Virus record (IMG/VR): IMGVR_UViG_3300020021_000004
Location: 22,249 to 86,248 of that record
Source of the DNA: a virus
Direction: 5' to 3' (one strand)
Length of the DNA: 64,000 bases
Shown here: positions 42,097 through 64,000 of the stretch, piece after piece
How positions within the stretch are numbered: the first letter of the stretch is position 1
Layout: every line of letters starts with the position of its first letter
Position numbers and translations under genes: made by a program
Notes under the pieces: model-generated
The model's input: the letters and a program-made list of their open reading frames with translations, nothing else
Database searches by the model: none
What the model was told of the DNA's origin: nothing

Positions 42097-44031
42097 TCAT
42101 TCCACGGATGGCTTGCGGAACACAAACAAGGGCTCAGTACTCCGCATTTTACCCAAGAAGCCGAGCGGGATGTTCCAGGTGTCTTCCAGTTGGAATCCGA
42201 CCCGTTGAGCGCGGGTCTGTAGCTCTTGGGCGATGGGGTACGCTTGGCGTCCTATCCTCACGTTCTTAGTGTTGATAGCCATCACACACCCTGGCCGTAG
42301 ATGAGTCCAAGATTTCCGGATCAAAGGCTCAAGAAAACCTTCAAGCCAGTCATTCCAAGACCTGTAGCGAACCCAGCTCTGACGCGAATCTTCCGAATAA
42401 CGCTCCACCGAGAAATACGGTGGGGACGTAAAGACCAGGTCAGCTTGAAGCTGGCCTAGGTCCACGTCTTCGAAAGGTTGTCCGTGAAATGTGAAGCGGG
42501 GCTCCGACAACCCCAACAAGCGGCCCAATTGCTCGTACGCCATGCCGGCGTCGGGATGAGGGTCACACCCCACATATGGTCGACCACTTGCAAGAGTGCC
42601 CGTCGCACGACCTCCATAACCTGCGCAGGGGTCGAGGACCAAGCCCCCTTCTGGGCAAAGACTACTCACAACTGCCTTCGCAAAGCACGGCCTAAAATTA
42701 GTAGGGGCTCGAACGACTGCCTGCACGGCACGAAATATCCGGACGGGTGTCATTGGGTCTTTGACCCTCAACTGAAATCGGACGGCCTTCCGCAAAGAGG
42801 TGGGGTCGTACCAGGCTTCCCGGGCCGACAGATGTTCCCGATACCTAGCGTCCCAACGGTATGCAAACAAATGCTGGCAGAGACGGGCTCCAGCAGAGGA
42901 GATTCCAGAGAACTGACCGTCTTGGTAGTGGGCGGGAGATTTCATCAGGCGACACCAATCCAAGAGGGCTTCGTCCTGCGACGGCAATCGTAATGGGATC
43001 TCCGTCTTCAACAGGATCCCCAGCACGCTATCTTCATAGGTGGGGGAGGTTGCATCAAGACGACGAATCGCCTCCAACGCTGACCCGTCGTCCAACTCCT
43101 GACGAACGACTTTCTTAGGGCGGCCTGGGGTGTTCCGTGGAACGCCCATCCGATCCAAAGCCCTCCTCACACTGTTCCGAGATACTTGCAACAGTTCGGC
43201 GATGGCCTGTGCCGAAAAGCTTCGGTCGAGAAGAGGTTGAAGGCGTTCGGTCGTCAACAAGTCTCTTGGGGGAATGCCAGCCTTAGGTCTGTGGAAATCC
43301 AGCTTGTACAGCATGCTGGAATGCATATGAGGCTCTACCCTTTTCAGGAAGCGGTTCAAGGAGGTGCGGCTGTGAATGCAGATTTCAGCGTCCCCTGTCG
43401 TGTAGAGGTTGGCTTGGATCCCTAAATGACGCAGAGCCCGCATCAACACCTGCTGATTGGCGGGATCGGGGCTCACAGCAAATCGCACGCCGTTCTGGCC
43501 CTTAGAGCCATCGTCCATGAACCACACCGCAAGGGCAAGGTCGTCCACCCACTCCAAGGGCATCCCCGTGAACACCTTGTCTCCCAAACCTGTCGGGTAG
43601 AACGTTTGCCAGAATGGGAACAGCACCGAGCATCCATGGGTTGTGAGGACGTTTCCCGGGAAACCATGGTGCACCACATCTCGTGTGCTCAACCAGAAGG
43701 TTGCCCATTCTTGGACCTTCCAGTCGAGGTACGGGCGCTGCTTAACCGAATGATGCTCTGTGTAGGCCGCCGTCTTGGACCCAGTCTTAAACAGACGGCC
43801 ATCACCCAACATAGACCCCACAAGAATCGACCGAAGTCGAGGCTCCAGTTTTCCAGGTAACTTCAGGCGATCACTCTTACTTATCGTGAGGATCCCGAAC
43901 TGTTTTCGAAGACGGTTGATCCGCACTTGATAGGTGCCGTACAGGACTGCGATCTCAGTCTCTGTCCTGCCCTCTTCAACGTATAGACGGTAGAACTCGT
44001 CGGGACCTAAATTGGCCAAAGGCTGTGTCAC
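42097..44031 (-). CDS. LAGLIDADG homing endonuclease fused to DNA methyltransferase
   Basis: 644 residues from the GTG at 44031. Order: helix-turn-helix-like (TETEIAVLYGTYQVRINRL); LAGLIDADG endonuclease with motif 1 VGSMLGDG (about 71-78) and motif 2 VWFMDDGS (169-176); second HTH (AQAIAELLQVSRNSVRRAL); AT-hook-like PGRPKK; linker; methyltransferase with motif I LDPCAGYGGRATG (466-478) and catalytic TSPPYF (535-540). The I-then-IV order with SPPY fits an amino (N6-A or N4-C) DNA methylase. I prefer 44031 because the longer TTG start at 44145 lies inside the capsid-gene terminator and before the promoter/inverted repeat. One gene may therefore cut and protect DNA. Confidence 0.7.
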   Translation of the reverse strand: MTQPLANLGPDEFYRLYVEEGRTETEIAVLYGTYQVRINRLRKQFGILTISKSDRLKLPGKLEPRLRSILVGSMLGDGRLFKTGSKTAAYTEHHSVKQRPYLDWKVQEWATFWLSTRDVVHHGFPGNVLTTHGCSVLFPFWQTFYPTGLGDKVFTGMPLEWVDDLALAVWFMDDGSKGQNGVRFAVSPDPANQQVLMRALRHLGIQANLYTTGDAEICIHSRTSLNRFLKRVEPHMHSSMLYKLDFHRPKAGIPPRDLLTTERLQPLLDRSFSAQAIAELLQVSRNSVRRALDRMGVPRNTPGRPKKVVRQELDDGSALEAIRRLDATSPTYEDSVLGILLKTEIPLRLPSQDEALLDWCRLMKSPAHYQDGQFSGISSAGARLCQHLFAYRWDARYREHLSAREAWYDPTSLRKAVRFQLRVKDPMTPVRIFRAVQAVVRAPTNFRPCFAKAVVSSLCPEGGLVLDPCAGYGGRATGTLASGRPYVGCDPHPDAGMAYEQLGRLLGLSEPRFTFHGQPFEDVDLGQLQADLVFTSPPYFSVERYSEDSRQSWVRYRSWNDWLEGFLEPLIRKSWTHLRPGCVMAINTKNVRIGRQAYPIAQELQTRAQRVGFQLEDTWNIPLGFLGKMRSTEPLFVFRKPSVE

Positions 44032-44089
44032 TAACGTAGGTATAAACACACCACGTCGAAAAAGTCTACGTGTGTTTATACCTACGTTA
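44032..44089 (-). repeat. 20-bp perfect inverted repeat, probable operator
   Basis: TAACGTAGGTATAAACACAC is present as a perfect 20-base inverted repeat (44032-44051 and 44070-44089) with an 18-base spacer. The arm nearest the capsid gene contains the -10-like TATAAA of the promoter described next. As RNA it would also form a long hairpin just before the preferred GTG start. Two modes (protein-bound operator or RNA hairpin) are possible. Confidence 0.65.
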
Positions 44090-44102
44090 AGTTCCACCTC
44101 AA
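44075..44102 (-). promoter_or_regulatory. Promoter candidate for the endonuclease-methylase gene
   Basis: Sense: TTGAGG (44102-44097), 16-base spacer, TATAAA (44080-44075). The -10 lies inside the inverted-repeat arm, so a dimer bound there would block initiation. It follows the capsid terminator by about 20 bases, so independent expression makes sense. Confidence 0.45.
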
Positions 44103-44124
44103 AAGGGACGTTAAATAGACGAAA

Positions 44125-44152
44125 CCCCCGGCCAGCTTGCGCCAACCAGGGG
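44125..44152 (-). terminator. Strong intrinsic terminator of the major capsid gene
   Basis: Sense strand: a 12-bp stem (CCCCTGGTTGGC with GCTGGCCGGGGG, four G-U pairs) closed by a GCAA (GNRA) tetraloop, followed by TTTCGTCTATTT. It lies 34 bases after the capsid stop codon. A weaker hairpin CAGCC/GGCTG precedes it. Confidence 0.6.
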
Positions 44153-56052: not shown

Positions 56053-56568
56053 TCACATACTGGTCTGAATACCGAGCCAGTTGTTGTTCAATGTCTTCGG
56101 GATCTGAGCTACGAAGCCAACGAAAAAAGCAGGAGCGAGCAAGCTTCCCGACAGCGTCAGTTCGTCTTCGTTCGTCCAATACCCTCGAAGGGAAAGGTAC
56201 AGGATGTCGTTCGGCTTGTAGGTGATGAGCACGAGAGGGCCGCTGAGGCGAGAAGCGTACGTGTACCTCTCGTACGTGGATGTCGAGATCAGATTCCCAC
56301 CAAAAAACATCGTAGCGTAACGATAGGTGGTCTGCTGGTCGGTCATCGCCGTGAAGCGATCCCCCGGTTCGGCTGAACCCCAAACCAAGAATCCCCCGTA
56401 AAAACCACCAGAATAGGTCACCACCCGGTCGTCTTGGGTGACACCCGTCCACTGCACGCCCTGCCCGCCTGCCCATCCGCCGGACACCATGGCGCTCGAC
56501 ACCGTCACGGTGGTGGAATCGCCTTTGAAGAAGACGATGCAGTCTCGAGTGCGGAAAATTTCGCTCAT
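56053..56568 (-). CDS. Tandem paralogue 3 of 3 (RTRDCxVFFKGD family)
   Basis: 171 residues. Shares the whole layout with the two genes upstream: opening FRTRDCIVFFKGDS, then GGWAGGQGVQWTG, VVTYSGGFYGGFLVWGS, YERYTYASRLSGPLVLITYK and LRGYWTNEDELTL. The beta-rich, Gly/Tyr/Trp-rich sequence suggests a compact surface domain. Located between the terminase and portal, an uncommon place for structural proteins. This copy is the most diverged near its end. Confidence 0.55.
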   Translation of the reverse strand: MSEIFRTRDCIVFFKGDSTTVTVSSAMVSGGWAGGQGVQWTGVTQDDRVVTYSGGFYGGFLVWGSAEPGDRFTAMTDQQTTYRYATMFFGGNLISTSTYERYTYASRLSGPLVLITYKPNDILYLSLRGYWTNEDELTLSGSLLAPAFFVGFVAQIPKTLNNNWLGIQTSM

Positions 56569-57086
56569 CAGATCGCCGTTTGGATTCCCAAGTAATTCTC
56601 GTTAAGGACGCTGGGGATCTGCACCACAGACCCCACGAAAAACCCGTTGGGCTTCCGAGGATCGTTGGCCAGTGTCCATTCATCCTCGTTCGTCCAAAAG
56701 CCTCGAAGCGAGAACAGAAGCCGCTGGCCCGTCGTGTACGTGATGGGTATGAGAGGCCCCGATTGCCGGGAAGCGTACGTGTATTTCTCGAAAGTCGTCG
56801 TCGAGATCAGCCATCCGCCCAGACACAGGACCGTGTAATTGTAGGTCGTCTGATTCTGGACGAAAGACACGTATTGGTCTGAAGGCTCGTTGGAGCCCCA
56901 GAGCATGAAACCGCCGTACAGGCCGTCCGAGTACGTGACCCGAAACTCGTCGACAGAAGAGTCGGTCCACATGGCGGCCTGACCGCCGAGCCAGCCGGTT
57001 TGATGCATGGCATCCGAAATAGTAACCGCGTACGAGTCCCCCTTGAAGAACACCACGCAGTCCCGAGTGCGAAAAATCTCGCTCAT
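56568..57086 (-). CDS. Tandem paralogue 2 of 3
   Basis: 172 residues, the middle copy. RTRDCVVFFKGDSYAVTISD and YGGFMLWGSNEPSDQYVSFV show the family pattern, and it shares TNEDEWTLANDPRKPN with copy 1. Its start codon overlaps the preceding stop by four bases, and its stop overlaps the next start by one base, so the three copies form one translational unit. Confidence 0.55.
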   Translation of the reverse strand: MSEIFRTRDCVVFFKGDSYAVTISDAMHQTGWLGGQAAMWTDSSVDEFRVTYSDGLYGGFMLWGSNEPSDQYVSFVQNQTTYNYTVLCLGGWLISTTTFEKYTYASRQSGPLIPITYTTGQRLLFSLRGFWTNEDEWTLANDPRKPNGFFVGSVVQIPSVLNENYLGIQTAI

Positions 57087-57607
57087 ATGGACACCTGAAT
57101 GGTCAGGTACTGCTCAGTAGCGACCGTCGGACCCTGCATGACGAAGCCGATGTAGTAGTTGTTGGGCTTTCGGGGGTCGTTAGCTAGGGTCCACTCGTCC
57201 TCGTTCGTCCAAAAGCCTCGAAGCGAGAACACCAGACGGTCGCTCGCATTGTAGGTGATGAGCACGAGAGGCCCCGATTGCCGGGAAGCGTACGTGTATT
57301 TCTCATACGAGGTCGTCATGATGATCCAACCCCCAGCACCAGCCGTTGCAAACTTGTACGCCGGCTGGTTGCGGGTCATCGCCGTGAAGCGATCCGAGGA
57401 CTCATCCGAACCCCAAAGAAGGAAGCCCGCGTAGTAGCCATCCGAGTACGTGACCAAGAACTCGTCTTTGGACGAACCTACCCATTGGACGCCCTGCCCG
57501 CCGCTCCAGCCACCTTTGGCCATAGTGTCGTCCACAGTGACCGGATAAGCGTCACCCTTGTACAGGATGACGCAATCCCGGGTGCGGAACTGCTCGGGCG
57601 TGGCCAT
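57083..57607 (-). CDS. Tandem paralogue 1 of 3
   Basis: 174 residues, the first copy. FRTRDCVILYKGDAYPVTVD, then GGWSGGQGVQWVGSSKDEFL and YTYASRQSGPLVLITYN. A family of three adjacent copies suggests either a hetero-oligomer of three similar subunits or a dosage need. No known family recognised by eye. The sharpest invariant positions are Arg-Thr-Arg-Asp-Cys at 7-11 and Trp-Thr-Asn-Glu-Asp-Glu near 135. Confidence 0.55.
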   Translation of the reverse strand: MATPEQFRTRDCVILYKGDAYPVTVDDTMAKGGWSGGQGVQWVGSSKDEFLVTYSDGYYAGFLLWGSDESSDRFTAMTRNQPAYKFATAGAGGWIIMTTSYEKYTYASRQSGPLVLITYNASDRLVFSLRGFWTNEDEWTLANDPRKPNNYYIGFVMQGPTVATEQYLTIQVSI

Positions 57608-57858
57608 CAGATCTCTTCCTCTTCAGGCTCGTCCGGCTTCTTCACCTTGCCCCAGTTGGTGATCACCTTCTCCAGAGTCGTGATCTGCTTGATGTCCCCG
57701 TGGATGAACGCATCCCATTGGCCCCCGAGCTTTCGGAAGACCAAGCGGATGATCATGTAGTCCCGAGGACGGATGGTCTGGGTAATGCCCAGATGGTCCG
57801 CAAACTGACGGATCACACGATTGGCGAAGACCAATGGGACTGCGGGTGCGTCGTCCAT
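57607..57858 (-). CDS. Hypothetical protein after terminase, 83 aa
   Basis: The ATG at 57858 overlaps the terminase stop as TAATG; longer frames read inside the terminase gene and are rejected. The product starts MDDAPAVPLVFANRVIRQFA, is helical with FRKLGGQWDAFIHGD in the middle, and ends in an acidic PDEPEEEEI tail. Function unknown; the coupling to the terminase gene suggests a role in packaging or head joining. Confidence 0.55.
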   Translation of the reverse strand: MDDAPAVPLVFANRVIRQFADHLGITQTIRPRDYMIIRLVFRKLGGQWDAFIHGDIKQITTLEKVITNWGKVKKPDEPEEEEI

Positions 57859-59858
57859 TATCTCGACCTTGGGCGCATACCTAGAGTGCTTCGATCCCCG
57901 ATGCCATGGTGACGAGCACGGCTCATCTGGTACCGTTGAGGGGTCATCCCGCCCGAAGAGACGGCAGGGCGGTAGGGCGTGCCGTGAGCGGTGTGCTTCT
58001 GGTTCAACAGCTGGTCGTGTGAAAGCCAAATCGCTCGCACCAACGCATCGCTCAAGTCGTCGTGCGCTCCAGCCTTCTGGGGAGCCGCTACCAACACCGT
58101 ATTCTTCGAGACGTGGTTGGCCTGTAGGGTCAACAGCTCGGCAATGAGCGGGGAGTGCCGGCCTCCATCACCCTTGGCTCGCTCAGGGAGGGGCCAGTCG
58201 TAAAGCTCAAGCTTCTTGTCGTACATGAGCATCTTCGCCGCCTGATAGATCTTGCTGGTCTGATCTCGCGTGAAGAACTCGCTCTTGAATTGACGGAGCC
58301 CTCGCTTGTGAAGCGCTTGCTCCAAAGGAATGCCGTTCCACCTGTCGAAGATAGCGGATGAAATGTGGAACTTCTTAGTAAGGGCCACGATCCAGTTGGC
58401 GATCTCATCGAAATCAAGGCGCTCTACATCTTTCAGGACCTTGGCGTAGTCGGTGGGGTACCGATTTTCGAGATGAGGATTCGCCTCTCGCCAGTCCATC
58501 CCTGCATACCAAACCTCATGGTAGTCGAGGATGACCCGGCTATCCTCGATGTGAGTGATTGCAATAGCGGTACCGTCCCCAATGAGGCCCACGTCGATCC
58601 CCATCTGGTGGGGCGTCCGCGGAGTGGCCATGATCTTGGGGCGGGCCGCAGGGTTGATGCACTCCGTGAGGTCCGTCTCTCGTTCGATCCAACCTCGTGC
58701 CTGATCCGAGAATTGAGCCCCGTGCTCAACCATGAATGAGGTGGGATTCTCGTGGTACTTCTCCTTGTAGTACGAGCTGGCGACCGTCGGGTTGATCTCC
58801 CAAGTCGGGGCCTGAATGGCGAGGATGTTGTACGCTCCCTCACCGCCCCGCATCGCAAGGTCGAACTTCTCGTAAAACTTGCCACTCTTACCTAGGGGTG
58901 ACGAAATCAGGATGATCCGGCTGTCGACCGGTACTTGCTTACCCGTCCGAGAGTCGATCGCCGGGCGACCCGTCTCGGGGTTCTTCCTCGAGTAGGCGGC
59001 AGCTGACGGCACGACAGCGTTGTAGATCTCGTCGGCCGAACTGTTGCCCTTGTCCTGAAAGTGGGCCACCTCATCAAGGATGATGACAATGTTACCTGCA
59101 CCACGAAGACCCTTGGCGATGCAGCTCTTGAAGGTGACGCGAAGGCTCGCCTTGCCGTTGAAGCTGACGAACTTACCATTGTCCTGACGTGACGTGGGAC
59201 CGAACTTCTCGATGTCGTAGGGCGTGCGAAAGTTCACGTGCGACAGAGTGTTGTTGGTCACGAAAGGCGTGAAGTAGTTGCACTTCGCCAAGTGAGTCGT
59301 CACCTCACCGAACAACAAACCGGCCTGCTCCTTGTCGGTAGCGACCGAGATGATCTGAATACGATTACCGTTCGGCAACCCGTAGTACTCTTGAGGGTTG
59401 TACAAGTTGAGGAGGCGGTAAACCTCGTAGCTAGCAAAGATGCCCGAGAGGGTCGTCTTGCCTGCTCGACGACCGATCGCGAGCACTAGTTCCCGACGCT
59501 CGTGGTCCTGCTCCCCGATGTTGCAACGACCCTCGTCGAAAAGGAACTTCAGGTACTCCCGTTCCGTGAACTCGTACCGGATCTTCGTGTTGAACATGTC
59601 CGGGATCTGGATACGCTTGAGCGGGTCCTCGGGCAGTGTCTCGTCGAGCGGCAAGTTGTAATAGAGCTTGACCAGGAAGCGCTGTGCGGGGAACAGCTTC
59701 ATGTCCAGCCCCCACGGCTGCTCGATGTAGTCCAGCACACTGAAGATGCGTGTGGGGCCGCCTTCGCTGCCGCCCGCTGCCGCTTCACCCGCCTGAAGGC
59801 GGATCTGTTGGCCCACCTGGCGGGCTAAATGGGCGATGCCCTTTTTGTTGTCGGCCAC
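57858..59858 (-). CDS. terL: Terminase large subunit (packaging ATPase-nuclease)
   Basis: 666 residues with a complete two-domain layout. ATPase: adenine-binding KLFPAQRFLVK (54-64), Walker A GRRAGKTT (129-136), Walker B IVIILDEVAHF (257-267), coupling motif ILISSPLG (316-323). Nuclease: GIDVGLIGDGTAI (420-432) with Asp422, AIFDRWNG near 520, and HDDLSDALV near 613, the acidic triad of the RNase H-like fold. It cuts concatemeric genomes and drives DNA through the portal. The gene immediately upstream is a degenerate copy of its ATPase half. Confidence 0.85.
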   Translation of the reverse strand: MADNKKGIAHLARQVGQQIRLQAGEAAAGGSEGGPTRIFSVLDYIEQPWGLDMKLFPAQRFLVKLYYNLPLDETLPEDPLKRIQIPDMFNTKIRYEFTEREYLKFLFDEGRCNIGEQDHERRELVLAIGRRAGKTTLSGIFASYEVYRLLNLYNPQEYYGLPNGNRIQIISVATDKEQAGLLFGEVTTHLAKCNYFTPFVTNNTLSHVNFRTPYDIEKFGPTSRQDNGKFVSFNGKASLRVTFKSCIAKGLRGAGNIVIILDEVAHFQDKGNSSADEIYNAVVPSAAAYSRKNPETGRPAIDSRTGKQVPVDSRIILISSPLGKSGKFYEKFDLAMRGGEGAYNILAIQAPTWEINPTVASSYYKEKYHENPTSFMVEHGAQFSDQARGWIERETDLTECINPAARPKIMATPRTPHQMGIDVGLIGDGTAIAITHIEDSRVILDYHEVWYAGMDWREANPHLENRYPTDYAKVLKDVERLDFDEIANWIVALTKKFHISSAIFDRWNGIPLEQALHKRGLRQFKSEFFTRDQTSKIYQAAKMLMYDKKLELYDWPLPERAKGDGGRHSPLIAELLTLQANHVSKNTVLVAAPQKAGAHDDLSDALVRAIWLSHDQLLNQKHTAHGTPYRPAVSSGGMTPQRYQMSRARHHGIGDRSTLGMRPRSR

Positions 59859-59861
59859 GAT

Positions 59862-60710
59862 TCACACCCGGGCCTCATACTCAAGACCGAAGCTCCGAAG
59901 ACCCAGATGGTCCCGCTCCCTTGAGTAAAAGTCTGAAGGAATGGTCGGGTTAGCATCCTGCGTAGGGATCCTCAGGGTAAGAGCACCCCGCTGTTTAGCC
60001 TGACGATAGAAATCCCTGAACGTCTTCGAGCCATCGGAGGTCGTCGTGATGGTGATCCGGCCCCCGCAGGGCGCCACTATGCTGTGGATGAGCGGGAGGT
60101 CCTGAAAATAGGCGGCATTGTCGAGCACCACTGATGATGCACGAAGGCCCCTGAGATCCTTACCCTGGGCGGACTTGAACATAGCCCTGACCCGGCCCCC
60201 GCCTTCACCTTCGAAGTTCAGGTAAGAAGCAGTCCGGTTCTTCAAGTACGGCTGAAGGTGAGATTCCGCCAAACACGCGGCATAAACGTCAAGGTGAACA
60301 CCGGCCGAAGCCCTGTCGTGAGAGACAGAGATCACACCTCTGGGCTCAGATCCTTGAGTCCGTAGGAGTTTGAGGGTCTCGTACAACTGGACCGTCTGGC
60401 CTAGCCAAGACATCCCGCCACGACGGCCCACAATGAGCACCGCCTCTTGCGAACCCTGACGAGCGGGCGTGCAACGACCTGTCCGCTCCAAGCGAACCAA
60501 GTACTGACGCTCCCGAGCATCTAGTTCGAGACCGTACATCATCTTCAGTATGAAGCGCTGTGCGGGAAACAGCTTCGGAACCCCAAGAGCACCTGAGTCC
60601 ACTAGTTCGATGATGGAGGGTTCGGAGGATTCGGGCTTCACGGAGAAGCCTGCCACCAAAGGCAATGCTGAGGTGAGCCCCAGCATCTGCATGAACGAAC
60701 GGCGGTTCAT
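59862..60710 (-). CDS. ATPase-only terminase paralogue with dead Walker motifs and Tat-like start
   Basis: 282 residues. From residue 46 it aligns with the large terminase: KLFPAQRFILKMM, GRRGGMSW (95-102), FKSAQGKDLRGLRASSVVLD and AYFQD. The Walker A Lys-Thr of the active enzyme is Met100-Ser101, and the Walker B Glu is Asn198, so ATP hydrolysis is not expected. It ends (LEYEARV) where the nuclease domain would begin. The start at 60710 overlaps the previous stop (ATGA) and gives MNRRSFMQMLGLTSALPLVA, with a twin-arginine RRxF and hydrophobic stretch like a Tat signal. It may be a regulatory partner of the terminase; export is only a possibility. Confidence 0.65.
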   Translation of the reverse strand: MNRRSFMQMLGLTSALPLVAGFSVKPESSEPSIIELVDSGALGVPKLFPAQRFILKMMYGLELDARERQYLVRLERTGRCTPARQGSQEAVLIVGRRGGMSWLGQTVQLYETLKLLRTQGSEPRGVISVSHDRASAGVHLDVYAACLAESHLQPYLKNRTASYLNFEGEGGGRVRAMFKSAQGKDLRGLRASSVVLDNAAYFQDLPLIHSIVAPCGGRITITTTSDGSKTFRDFYRQAKQRGALTLRIPTQDANPTIPSDFYSRERDHLGLRSFGLEYEARV

Positions 60711-61345
60711 AGGTTCTGAGCCTTTTCCTCCCACCCTTCGAGCTTGGTCTCCAAACGGTTGAAGAGAAGGTCGATCATCTCGGGGGAAAGCACATCACCG
60801 GCCGCTGCTCGAACGGTCTCCAAAAAGAACGCAAAGATCTTCTGGAACTTCTCACCCTTGAGGTCGATCATCGTAGCGCCCAAGCGACGAATCTCTAGTT
60901 CGAGATGGGCCACTTCACGCAAAGCCGCAATACGGCGGCTCGACATCTGCGACGTGTCCTTGCCGTACTTTTCCTCTTCGATGCGCTGGAAGTGCAGGGC
61001 CGCCGATTCACGGGCGATCTCCTCCTTCACCCTCTGAAGGGTCTCGATCGATTCTTGACGCTCACCCGTCGAACGTACGAGGGGGTCCGCGTTGATGAAC
61101 GCAGTCTTCTGGCGAATCATCTCCGCGTGATAGATGAGGTCGTCCCTTGTGGGTTCCGTTCGGATCTTCTTCGGGCGGCCGGGTCCTCGTTTGATGGCTC
61201 CGGTTGCCGCATGGATGGGCACCACCGTGCCATTGGCGTGAGCCAACGGTCGCTGAGAATCGACGGCCTTCTGCTCTTGAGCCTTCTTGGCCTCAGCTTC
61301 AGCGTCAGCCTCGTCATCGTTGTAGATCTCGGTATCGTCGGACAT
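60707..61345 (-). CDS. Terminase small subunit candidate
   Basis: 212 residues upstream of the terminase genes. An acidic N-terminus is followed by an AT-hook-like RGPGRPKKIR (about 53-62), then a helical core (EESIETLQRV-type coiled coil, LREVAHLELEIRRLGATM) and a C-terminal segment ending WEEKAQNL that could contact the large subunit. DNA-recognising small terminases vary greatly, so the call rests on position, length and a DNA-binding motif. It overlaps the inactive terminase paralogue by four bases. Confidence 0.5.
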   Translation of the reverse strand: MSDDTEIYNDDEADAEAEAKKAQEQKAVDSQRPLAHANGTVVPIHAATGAIKRGPGRPKKIRTEPTRDDLIYHAEMIRQKTAFINADPLVRSTGERQESIETLQRVKEEIARESAALHFQRIEEEKYGKDTSQMSSRRIAALREVAHLELEIRRLGATMIDLKGEKFQKIFAFFLETVRAAAGDVLSPEMIDLLFNRLETKLEGWEEKAQNL

Positions 61346-61347
61346 GG

Positions 61348-61755
61348 CTACTTCTTCTTCCCTTCTTCGGTTCCCTCACCGCCGTTGCCCTCTGTCCGGA
61401 TCAAATACTGGGACAGGTTGTAGGCAACGTCGTAACCCTTGTCTTTCGGGACTTGCTTATCCAAAGCGTTGGACAAATCCTTGCCCGATTGAACAAGGCT
61501 GAGGACCCCAGTGTTGTTGGGGGTCGCAGGAAACACGTCTTTTGGCTGAATATCTCGGCTATGAGGCTTGATGATGTCCTCACCCTTGGTTTTCGAAACG
61601 CCGTTGTCTTTGACCACGTCACGGTCGATGCCCTTAGGCTTGTTGATGGGCGTGACGTTCTGTTTGGCCTTCTGGCGAGCACCAGGAACCTGATCGGCCC
61701 GACGGTGGCGGTAAGCCGCCACCACCCGACGAACGGACTCGATGCTGTTCTTCAC
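61348..61755 (-). CDS. Hypothetical basic protein, 135 aa
   Basis: Starts MKNSIESVRRVVAAYRHRRA; the first 35 residues are strongly basic, the middle is polar and disordered (PINKPKGIDRDVVKDN), and the end is Gly-Glu-Lys-rich. Not recognised. It overlaps the Cys-rich gene by four bases and is three bases before the small-terminase candidate. Disordered basic phage proteins of this kind are often virion-associated, but no direct evidence is present. Confidence 0.5.
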   Translation of the reverse strand: MKNSIESVRRVVAAYRHRRADQVPGARQKAKQNVTPINKPKGIDRDVVKDNGVSKTKGEDIIKPHSRDIQPKDVFPATPNNTGVLSLVQSGKDLSNALDKQVPKDKGYDVAYNLSQYLIRTEGNGGEGTEEGKKK

Positions 61756-63740
61756 AGTTTGATCTCGTGACTCCCGAACTGGATCGAAGTGCTGAACTTC
61801 TGGCCTTCGGGGTTGAATTCGATCGAAGCCTCGTGATGCTGGAGCTGGTACTCCTGCATCATCGTCAAGCCGTTGTTGGCCATCAAAGCCTCAGCATTGG
61901 GCATCGTATTAGCGGGACCCGACGCCAGCATGGCCTGCTGTTCGGCGTACTTGTCGATGTAGGGCGGCTCCACCACGAGCTGCTTGTTGAGCACCGAGCA
62001 ATGCCCAATACGGGTCTGGTGCACGCAAGAGCTGCACTTGTCGCCGACCTTGGCATACTTCACGGCCCCACGTGAACGATGGAGGCTAGCGGCCCGCTGG
62101 CAGCCCTTGCCGTAGTCGTCGTACACAGTGGGGTCGATATATTTGAACCCCTGGAGGCCCTGCTCAGCCAAGACAGCTCGAAGCTCCGGTCCCGTCGCCA
62201 AGAGGGCTCGGGGATCGAACGCCTGACGGAGAGCCATCAAGAGATCGGTCCCGTAAAGGCCCTCGTTCAGGTACTCGGCCGCCTTCTTGAGGATATTGCG
62301 CTTCGTCAGCTCACCGGCGGTAACCTGATGAGAGCTTCCGTAGAAAGCGGTCTCGATGCTGCCCCGCTGCGACTGCTGCGTGATGCTAGCTACCGGCATC
62401 GAGGAGGCGTTGTGGATGTTCTTGAGAGCCTCGACAGGTGTGGACCCCCACTTCATCCGGGACGCTTCCTGGGGCAGCTTGCCAGCGATCCGCTGCTCGT
62501 CCACGACCGCTTGCACGGTTTCGTTCGTGTACAGGTCGGTCGCGTTGGCGACCAGCTTGCGGCCGTACATCATGCAGCGGCCGACCTTGTTGAAGATGCA
62601 AGAGCTGCACTTCTCGCCCGCCACAACCGCACGAACCTTCGAAGCGTGACGGTTGATGTAGTCGGCGCCCACGCGGCAGTCGTCGAACGAGTCCTGCGTC
62701 AGGTAGACGGCCCCGTACAAGCCCGCTTCCTTGTAAGTGGGACCCCACTCGGCCTTCGTGGCTTCCAGATCCCGGAGGTCGAACGCCAAACGAAGCCCGT
62801 GCGCTAGTTCAGACTCCGTCCGACCCTTGAGCATCTCCTTGCGGAGGAACGCGATAACGGGACGGGCCTTGAGGGCCGCCATCTTCTGCTGGGACTCCAG
62901 ATCCCGCTTCTTGGTCAAGCTCGAAGCCGCAATCAGCACCTGCTGAGTGTCCACCTTGGCTTGAGGCGGGGCGTACTGCTGATGGCCACTGAAAGCCTGG
63001 CCAACCGCCTCTTGAGAGGCCAGGAAAGCCCTTTGAATGCGCTCACGAGGCGTACCGGCCGAAGCTTGAACGCCCATACCCTTCGCCTGTTGGGTGCGCT
63101 CGACATCCGAAGCCAGATTGTCCGTGTACGGGACATCCATTTGGATCTGCTTGTGGAAGACCCCGCAATGGCTTGCCCCGTTCGTCACGTGACGGTGGCT
63201 GCAATCCCCGCAAGCCGTCTTGGCCACTACGAACTTGGCTTCAGGTGCGTACCTTCGCACGAAGTCCGACGCCTCTTTGGAGCCACGGTTGCAATTCGGG
63301 AAGTCCTGAGCGGCCACGTAGTAGCGACCCAAGAGTCCTCGTTCTGCGAACACCTCCGCCAACGCTGTCTTGGCGTTCGAAAGAGCTGTCCCGTCGTAGC
63401 GGGTCGCCAGAATACTTCGGATCTTCGTAGGATCGGTCGTCTGCATGATCGCCAAACGGGCGGTTCGCAGAAGGCCCGGTGAGGCCATCTCCATCGCCAA
63501 ACGACCATGAACTTCCGACAAGTCGCCCATCGTCCTAGGAGCCCCTGTGTTGGGCACGAAGTTCGAGGCCGGTTCGTCTCGATGACGCCAAAGCGCTTCG
63601 AGGTCCGGGACCACGTCGAGATTCTGCTTGGGCAGGGTGTCCAGCTCGCGATAAGCCTTCGCATCCACGTCCAACCAATCGAGGTTGGAAACGGCGGAGC
63701 CCTCTTTCAAGTAGTCCGTGAGGTCACCTAGTTCAGACAT
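61752..63740 (-). CDS. Triple Cys-repeat protein, 662 aa
   Basis: I start at the ATG at 63740 (MSELGDLTDYLKEG), which overlaps the upstream stop by eight bases and has GGGACG upstream. Three copies of a four-Cys module are visible. Copy 1: DFPNCNRGSKEAS ... KTACGDC ... HCGVFHKQI. Copy 2: FDDCRVGADYINRH ... EKCSSCIF ... RCMMYGRKLV. Copy 3: YGKGCQRAASLHR ... DKCSSCVH ... HCSVLNKQLV. Each has C-x(~35)-CxxC-x(8-10)-C, suitable for zinc or an Fe-S cluster. Between the modules are helical segments with 'L...LR.AFD.R.L'. It lies just upstream of packaging genes. Family unknown to me. Confidence 0.55.
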   Translation of the reverse strand: MSELGDLTDYLKEGSAVSNLDWLDVDAKAYRELDTLPKQNLDVVPDLEALWRHRDEPASNFVPNTGAPRTMGDLSEVHGRLAMEMASPGLLRTARLAIMQTTDPTKIRSILATRYDGTALSNAKTALAEVFAERGLLGRYYVAAQDFPNCNRGSKEASDFVRRYAPEAKFVVAKTACGDCSHRHVTNGASHCGVFHKQIQMDVPYTDNLASDVERTQQAKGMGVQASAGTPRERIQRAFLASQEAVGQAFSGHQQYAPPQAKVDTQQVLIAASSLTKKRDLESQQKMAALKARPVIAFLRKEMLKGRTESELAHGLRLAFDLRDLEATKAEWGPTYKEAGLYGAVYLTQDSFDDCRVGADYINRHASKVRAVVAGEKCSSCIFNKVGRCMMYGRKLVANATDLYTNETVQAVVDEQRIAGKLPQEASRMKWGSTPVEALKNIHNASSMPVASITQQSQRGSIETAFYGSSHQVTAGELTKRNILKKAAEYLNEGLYGTDLLMALRQAFDPRALLATGPELRAVLAEQGLQGFKYIDPTVYDDYGKGCQRAASLHRSRGAVKYAKVGDKCSSCVHQTRIGHCSVLNKQLVVEPPYIDKYAEQQAMLASGPANTMPNAEALMANNGLTMMQEYQLQHHEASIEFNPEGQKFSTSIQFGSHEIKL

Positions 63741-64000
63741 CGTTCGTCCCTGTGAGATGGCGTTGAGGCCAGTTGTGTAGGGGGTCGTCCCTATAGTCGT
63801 GTGTGGTGTCATCGTAGCGGACATAGGGGGTCGACATGTCCTGCGTCACGTAGTCGGTGTTCATCAATCCTGGAGAATACTCACCCTGAGGAGTCGCCTC
63901 GCCCGGGAGATCCGACTGCGCCATTTGGGTGTTCACCAAGTTGCCCTTGTCCCCTTGGTAATAATCGGACCGGGCCACCGGGCTCTCGGTGTCGTTGGGT
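63733..64000 (-). CDS. Hypothetical protein, 5' end beyond the window
   Basis: The frame stays open to base 64000, so the true start is outside. The visible C-terminal ~89 residues are hydrophilic, rich in Asp, Gln, Tyr and Pro (NTQMAQSDLPGEATPQGEYS; DYVTQDMSTPYVRYDDTTHD) and end LTGTNDV, with no domain recognised. It overlaps the start of the Cys-repeat gene, so it belongs to the same operon. A GTG at 63978 could be a start but nothing supports it. Confidence 0.45.
   Translation of the reverse strand, partial: PNDTESPVARSDYYQGDKGNLVNTQMAQSDLPGEATPQGEYSPGLMNTDYVTQDMSTPYVRYDDTTHDYRDDPLHNWPQRHLTGTNDV

Follow-up and report, generated by a model that had tools for sequence, protein, structure and literature searches.

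A catalytically dead terminase ATPase paralogue between a small-terminase-like gene and terL of a virus contig, with a possible role as a non-hydrolysing packaging partner

The usual assumption is that phage packaging motors are homomeric rings. A second gene resembling the ATPase half of the large terminase (TerL), located directly upstream of an intact terL, raises the question of whether such a copy is a functional gene and, if so, what it contributes. The stretch of DNA analyzed here (64,000 nucleotides, referred to as the window) belongs to an 86-kb virus contig. Relatives reach up to 512 kb, so this contig probably represents only part of a large phage. Three minus-strand genes define the locus.

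57858 to 59858, minus strand: intact large terminase gene terL (666 aa), with Walker A GRRAGKTT, the catalytic DE pair and a C-terminal nuclease half
59862 to 60710, minus strand: dead TerL ATPase-domain paralogue, hereafter the twin (282 aa), identified by BLASTP, motif map, AlphaFold and Foldseek
60707 to 61345, minus strand: small-terminase-like gene (212 aa), 5' neighbor of the twin, assigned by position and make-up only

The twin open reading frame is intact, with an ATG at 60710, 282 codons on the minus strand and a stop at 59862. A GTG at 60734 is a possible longer start, although the ATG at 60710 overlaps the stop of the 212-aa upstream gene (ATGA). The gap between the twin stop and the GTG of terL is 3 nt. 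The overlap upstream and the short gap downstream suggest co-translation, and the twin is probably translated in the same operon as the small-terminase-like gene and terL. The 212-aa product had no match in the profile search. A first-pass annotation of this DNA had described a gene directly upstream of the terminase encoding only the ATPase half; the reading frame and coordinates proved correct, and the 282-aa product stops short of the nuclease half.

Several neighboring genes were also recorded. Downstream of terL (56053-57607) lies a tandem array of three paralogous genes (171-174 aa, 56-61% identical), a three-copy arrangement also seen in the related record L003; one was checked for a family match and none was found. 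At 61752-63824 lies a 690-aa protein with repeated Cys-containing units and no family match; it is conserved in relatives, where it too precedes the packaging genes. A 682-aa ORF at 42097-44145 contains LAGLIDADG and HTH domains together with the beginning of an N6/N4 DNA methylase domain, and may represent an intein or homing endonuclease inside a methyltransferase gene.

Homology between the twin and the adjoining TerL was detected by BLASTP (27% identity over 330 columns, E 9e-24). Matches of the twin to TerL families in PHROGs were weak and a Pfam search returned none. An AlphaFold model built on a 42-row alignment composed of TerLs reached a pLDDT of 82.8, most of residues 28-270 scoring above 80, and its best PDB matches in Foldseek were all solved terminases: the P74-26 TerL ATPase (E 3.5e-10), T4 gp17 and HK97 TerL. 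A single-sequence model was unusable (pLDDT 34), and the fold call is thus based on homology and the alignment-based model. The BLASTP score, modeled fold and Foldseek matches together place the twin within the TerL ATPase fold and rule out chance resemblance, while the C-terminal RNase H-like nuclease domain is absent. We are highly confident that the twin is a real, diverged and catalytically dead TerL ATPase paralogue.

Three motifs in the twin bear upon its catalytic state.

60405 to 60428, minus strand: degenerate Walker A, GRRGGMSW (aa 95-102), versus GRRAGKTT in TerL
60117 to 60122, minus strand: degenerate Walker B, with DN replacing DE (aa 197-198)
60147 to 60155, minus strand: LRG motif (aa 186-188), with R187 aligned to R139, the P74-26 trans arginine finger

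Both Walker changes, as reported in the first-pass annotation, were confirmed, and they correspond to K134M, T135S, T136W and E263N in TerL numbering; the twin thus has neither the Walker A lysine nor the catalytic glutamate. The Walker lysine was present in 101 of 101 distinct related TerL-like ORFs, indicating that only the twin has lost it. The accompanying statement that the rest of the domain is kept holds for the LRG finger, the P-loop RR and the Walker B Asp, along with most of the LFPAQRF block, but not for motif III (ISSP) and several loops, which are lost, as is part of the QAPTWE motif. Fewer than half of the near-invariant family columns (33 of 74) are retained. The loss of motif III, the loop deletions and the retention of the LRG arginine had been overlooked.

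The identity of this arginine was established by alignment. The PDB chains of P74-26, wild type in 4zni and R139A in 4znj, are distinguished by the arginine of LRG, which marks it as R139, and in an alignment with phiFa and both P74-26 chains twin R187 occupies the same column, making it a putative trans arginine finger. R139 of P74-26 is reported as a biochemically confirmed trans arginine finger (PMC5727402), and such fingers have been called indispensable for hydrolysis (PMC7617512). By analogy, R187 would work in trans; it could also persist by descent alone. The loss of cis catalytic residues together with retention of the trans finger fits the pattern of a non-hydrolysing partner.

Maintenance of the gene was examined by simulation. 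When the TerL segment was allowed to drift neutrally until it reached 27% identity, copies acquired 6.4 stops on average and none of 200 runs remained stop-free. Furthermore, the codon-position GC and codon bias of the twin fall within the range of neighboring genes. The drift simulations argue against a simple pseudogene, and a pseudogene with a broken frame was rejected on both counts. The open frame was therefore kept by past selection, which is not proof of present function.

Conservation in other phages was sought widely. No relative of the twin was found in scans of IMG/VR and GTDB, and a profile-guided scan returned matches to TerLs at up to 31% identity. The records of 26 relatives, searched in full, contained TerL alone, and no second twin was present among the viral contigs, GTDB genomes, phage records and full relative records covered. 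This survey may miss the records nearest to the window, and close sister phages could carry the twin. A related TerL, sought in GTDB genomes as a pointer to the host, was likewise not found there. The first-pass annotation had proposed a survey of related phages for the tandem pair, and had named its absence there as grounds for abandoning its reading; no conserved tandem TerL pair occurs in the related phages examined, the nearest records possibly lying outside the scan. Conserved loss of the Lys and Glu therefore cannot be shown, and selection for the dead state is not separable from relaxed constraint.

The junction itself is informative. In 143 loci (counted with repeats) where both genes were present, the gap between the TerS-like gene and TerL was nearly always 0-26 nt, and seven contained inserts upstream of terL.

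L084-L086, L094 and L109: GIY-YIG homing endonuclease
LR745208 (L111): TnpB (OrfB_IS605)
L090: 72-aa ORF with no match found

None of the seven inserts is a twin. The GIY-YIG endonucleases and TnpB mark the junction as an insertion hotspot, and the twin looks like a singleton, either a fast-diverging or an acquired TerL ATPase paralogue.

The twin may descend from an old duplication or have been imported into this hotspot. Its branch in the tree is saturated at approximately 10 changes per column, making tree placement unreliable. An AU test weakly rejected the twin and its own TerL as sisters (p 0.046), and AU tests gave no firm placement; together with the 27% identity, a recent duplication of the adjoining terL is not favored. 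The 24 nt encoding KLFPAQRF are near-identical in the twin and terL (one mismatch), which raised the possibility of gene conversion; this was dismissed because the TerL of another phage of the family matches with two mismatches. Inteins interrupt the TerL Walker A in several relatives (GRR[AG]GK^C...HN^TT; L015, L016, L018, L019, L027 and L029, with ORFs of 1101-1120 aa), and Pfam confirmed intein splicing and LAGLIDADG domains in L015. Intein debris was rejected as a source of the twin, which contains no intein sequence.

The N-terminus of the twin is unusual for a packaging protein.

60630 to 60710, minus strand: N-terminal leader of the twin (aa 1-27), hydrophobic and Tat-like, 15.0 bits on TIGR01409, low model confidence

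The leader, MNRRSFMQMLGLTSALPLVAGFSV, carries RR-S-F-M at residues 3-7 followed by 20 uncharged residues. It passes a simple TatFind-like rule written for the present analysis and is one of only 6 of 1,466 ORFs to do so, the other passers appearing spurious. The first-pass suggestion of a twin-arginine signal is borne out by this rule but not by TIGR01409, where the score lies under the curated cutoff of 16.7. AlphaFold confidence is low over the leader, and no clear cleavage site or lipobox was seen by eye. The motif is suggestive of a Tat-like leader, which may tether the twin to the membrane or be coincidence.

Our preferred explanation, held tentatively and at somewhat under even chances, is that the twin is a non-hydrolysing accessory subunit that docks on TerL. 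Without the Walker A Lys/Thr, the catalytic Glu and motif III it would be unable to hydrolyse ATP; it would still dock on TerL via the ring interface, its arginine finger possibly completing the active site of a neighboring subunit there, and it may thereby tune or cap motor assembly. A Tat-like leader would be superfluous in a packaging partner, which counts against this reading. A hetero-oligomeric motor, in which the ATPase-dead paralogue enters or caps the TerL ring and supplies a finger without hydrolysis, positioned by the leader at the membrane, is unlikely. The first-pass observation was sound, while its inference of selection for a non-hydrolysing role overreached and is partly supported: the hydrolysis residues are gone and the frame has stayed open, but no relative has the pair.

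It is also possible, although rather doubtful, that the gene is being lost. In this view a partial copy of TerL arose at the TerS-TerL junction by duplication or acquisition, perhaps brought along by local homing-endonuclease activity, and is still expressed but does little or nothing, constraint on it having relaxed only recently. Its singleton status in the collections searched, the very long branch, the depleted invariant columns and the uptake of endonucleases and TnpB at this junction in relatives are all consistent with decay, whereas the stop-free frame, coding-like codon bias and tight operon packing are not. The twin might instead inhibit terminase-sensing immunity, acting as bait that occupies an Avs sensor without productive activation. 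Bacterial Avs proteins recognize the TerL fold. The proteins sensed by Avs1-4 are TerL, portal or a different phage protein (PMC12931631), the Foldseek matches include the terminase chain of the Avs3-bound complex 8dgc, and a fast-evolving singleton fits an arms race. However, the 8dgc match reflects the general TerL fold only, bait would trigger Avs more easily than block it, and a PADLOC search found nothing; this reading is improbable. Equally slim is the chance of an exported or membrane-tethered protein whose leader is functional and whose ATPase fold now serves for binding, either at the membrane or in the periplasm. The RR-S-F-M motif, the uncharged run and the TIGR01409 score would agree with export, yet that score is below cutoff, the leader offers no clear processing site and no relative to confirm it, and the operon position points to packaging.

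If the twin is a non-hydrolysing partner, it would provide a natural TerL copy as a ready-made probe of subunit coordination. As immune bait it would represent a new type of terminase-based counter-defence, and it may be simply an isolated outcome at a junction prone to acquiring foreign genes.

Compared with TerL ATPase domains of the P74-26 and T4 gp17 type, the twin shares the fold, the LFPAQRF (Q motif-like) block, the P-loop arginines, the Walker B Asp and the LRG arginine finger, and differs in the missing Walker A Lys/Thr, catalytic Glu, motif III and nuclease domain, in its Tat-like leader and in its low identity to the adjoining TerL. With Tat signal peptides (TIGR01409) it has in common the RRSFM motif near the N-terminus and an uncharged hydrophobic run, in contrast to its sub-threshold score, packaging-type protein and lack of an orthologue. 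Dead ring-ATPase subunits that lend an arginine finger exist, e.g. the F1 alpha subunits. A literature search for terminases that are dead, duplicated or paralogous turned up nothing pertinent at the level of titles and abstracts, and no dead-TerL example or TerL counterpart of such subunits. A hetero-ring containing the twin is hypothetical, and its likeness to F1 alpha lies in the same combination of absent cis catalysis and a retained trans finger.
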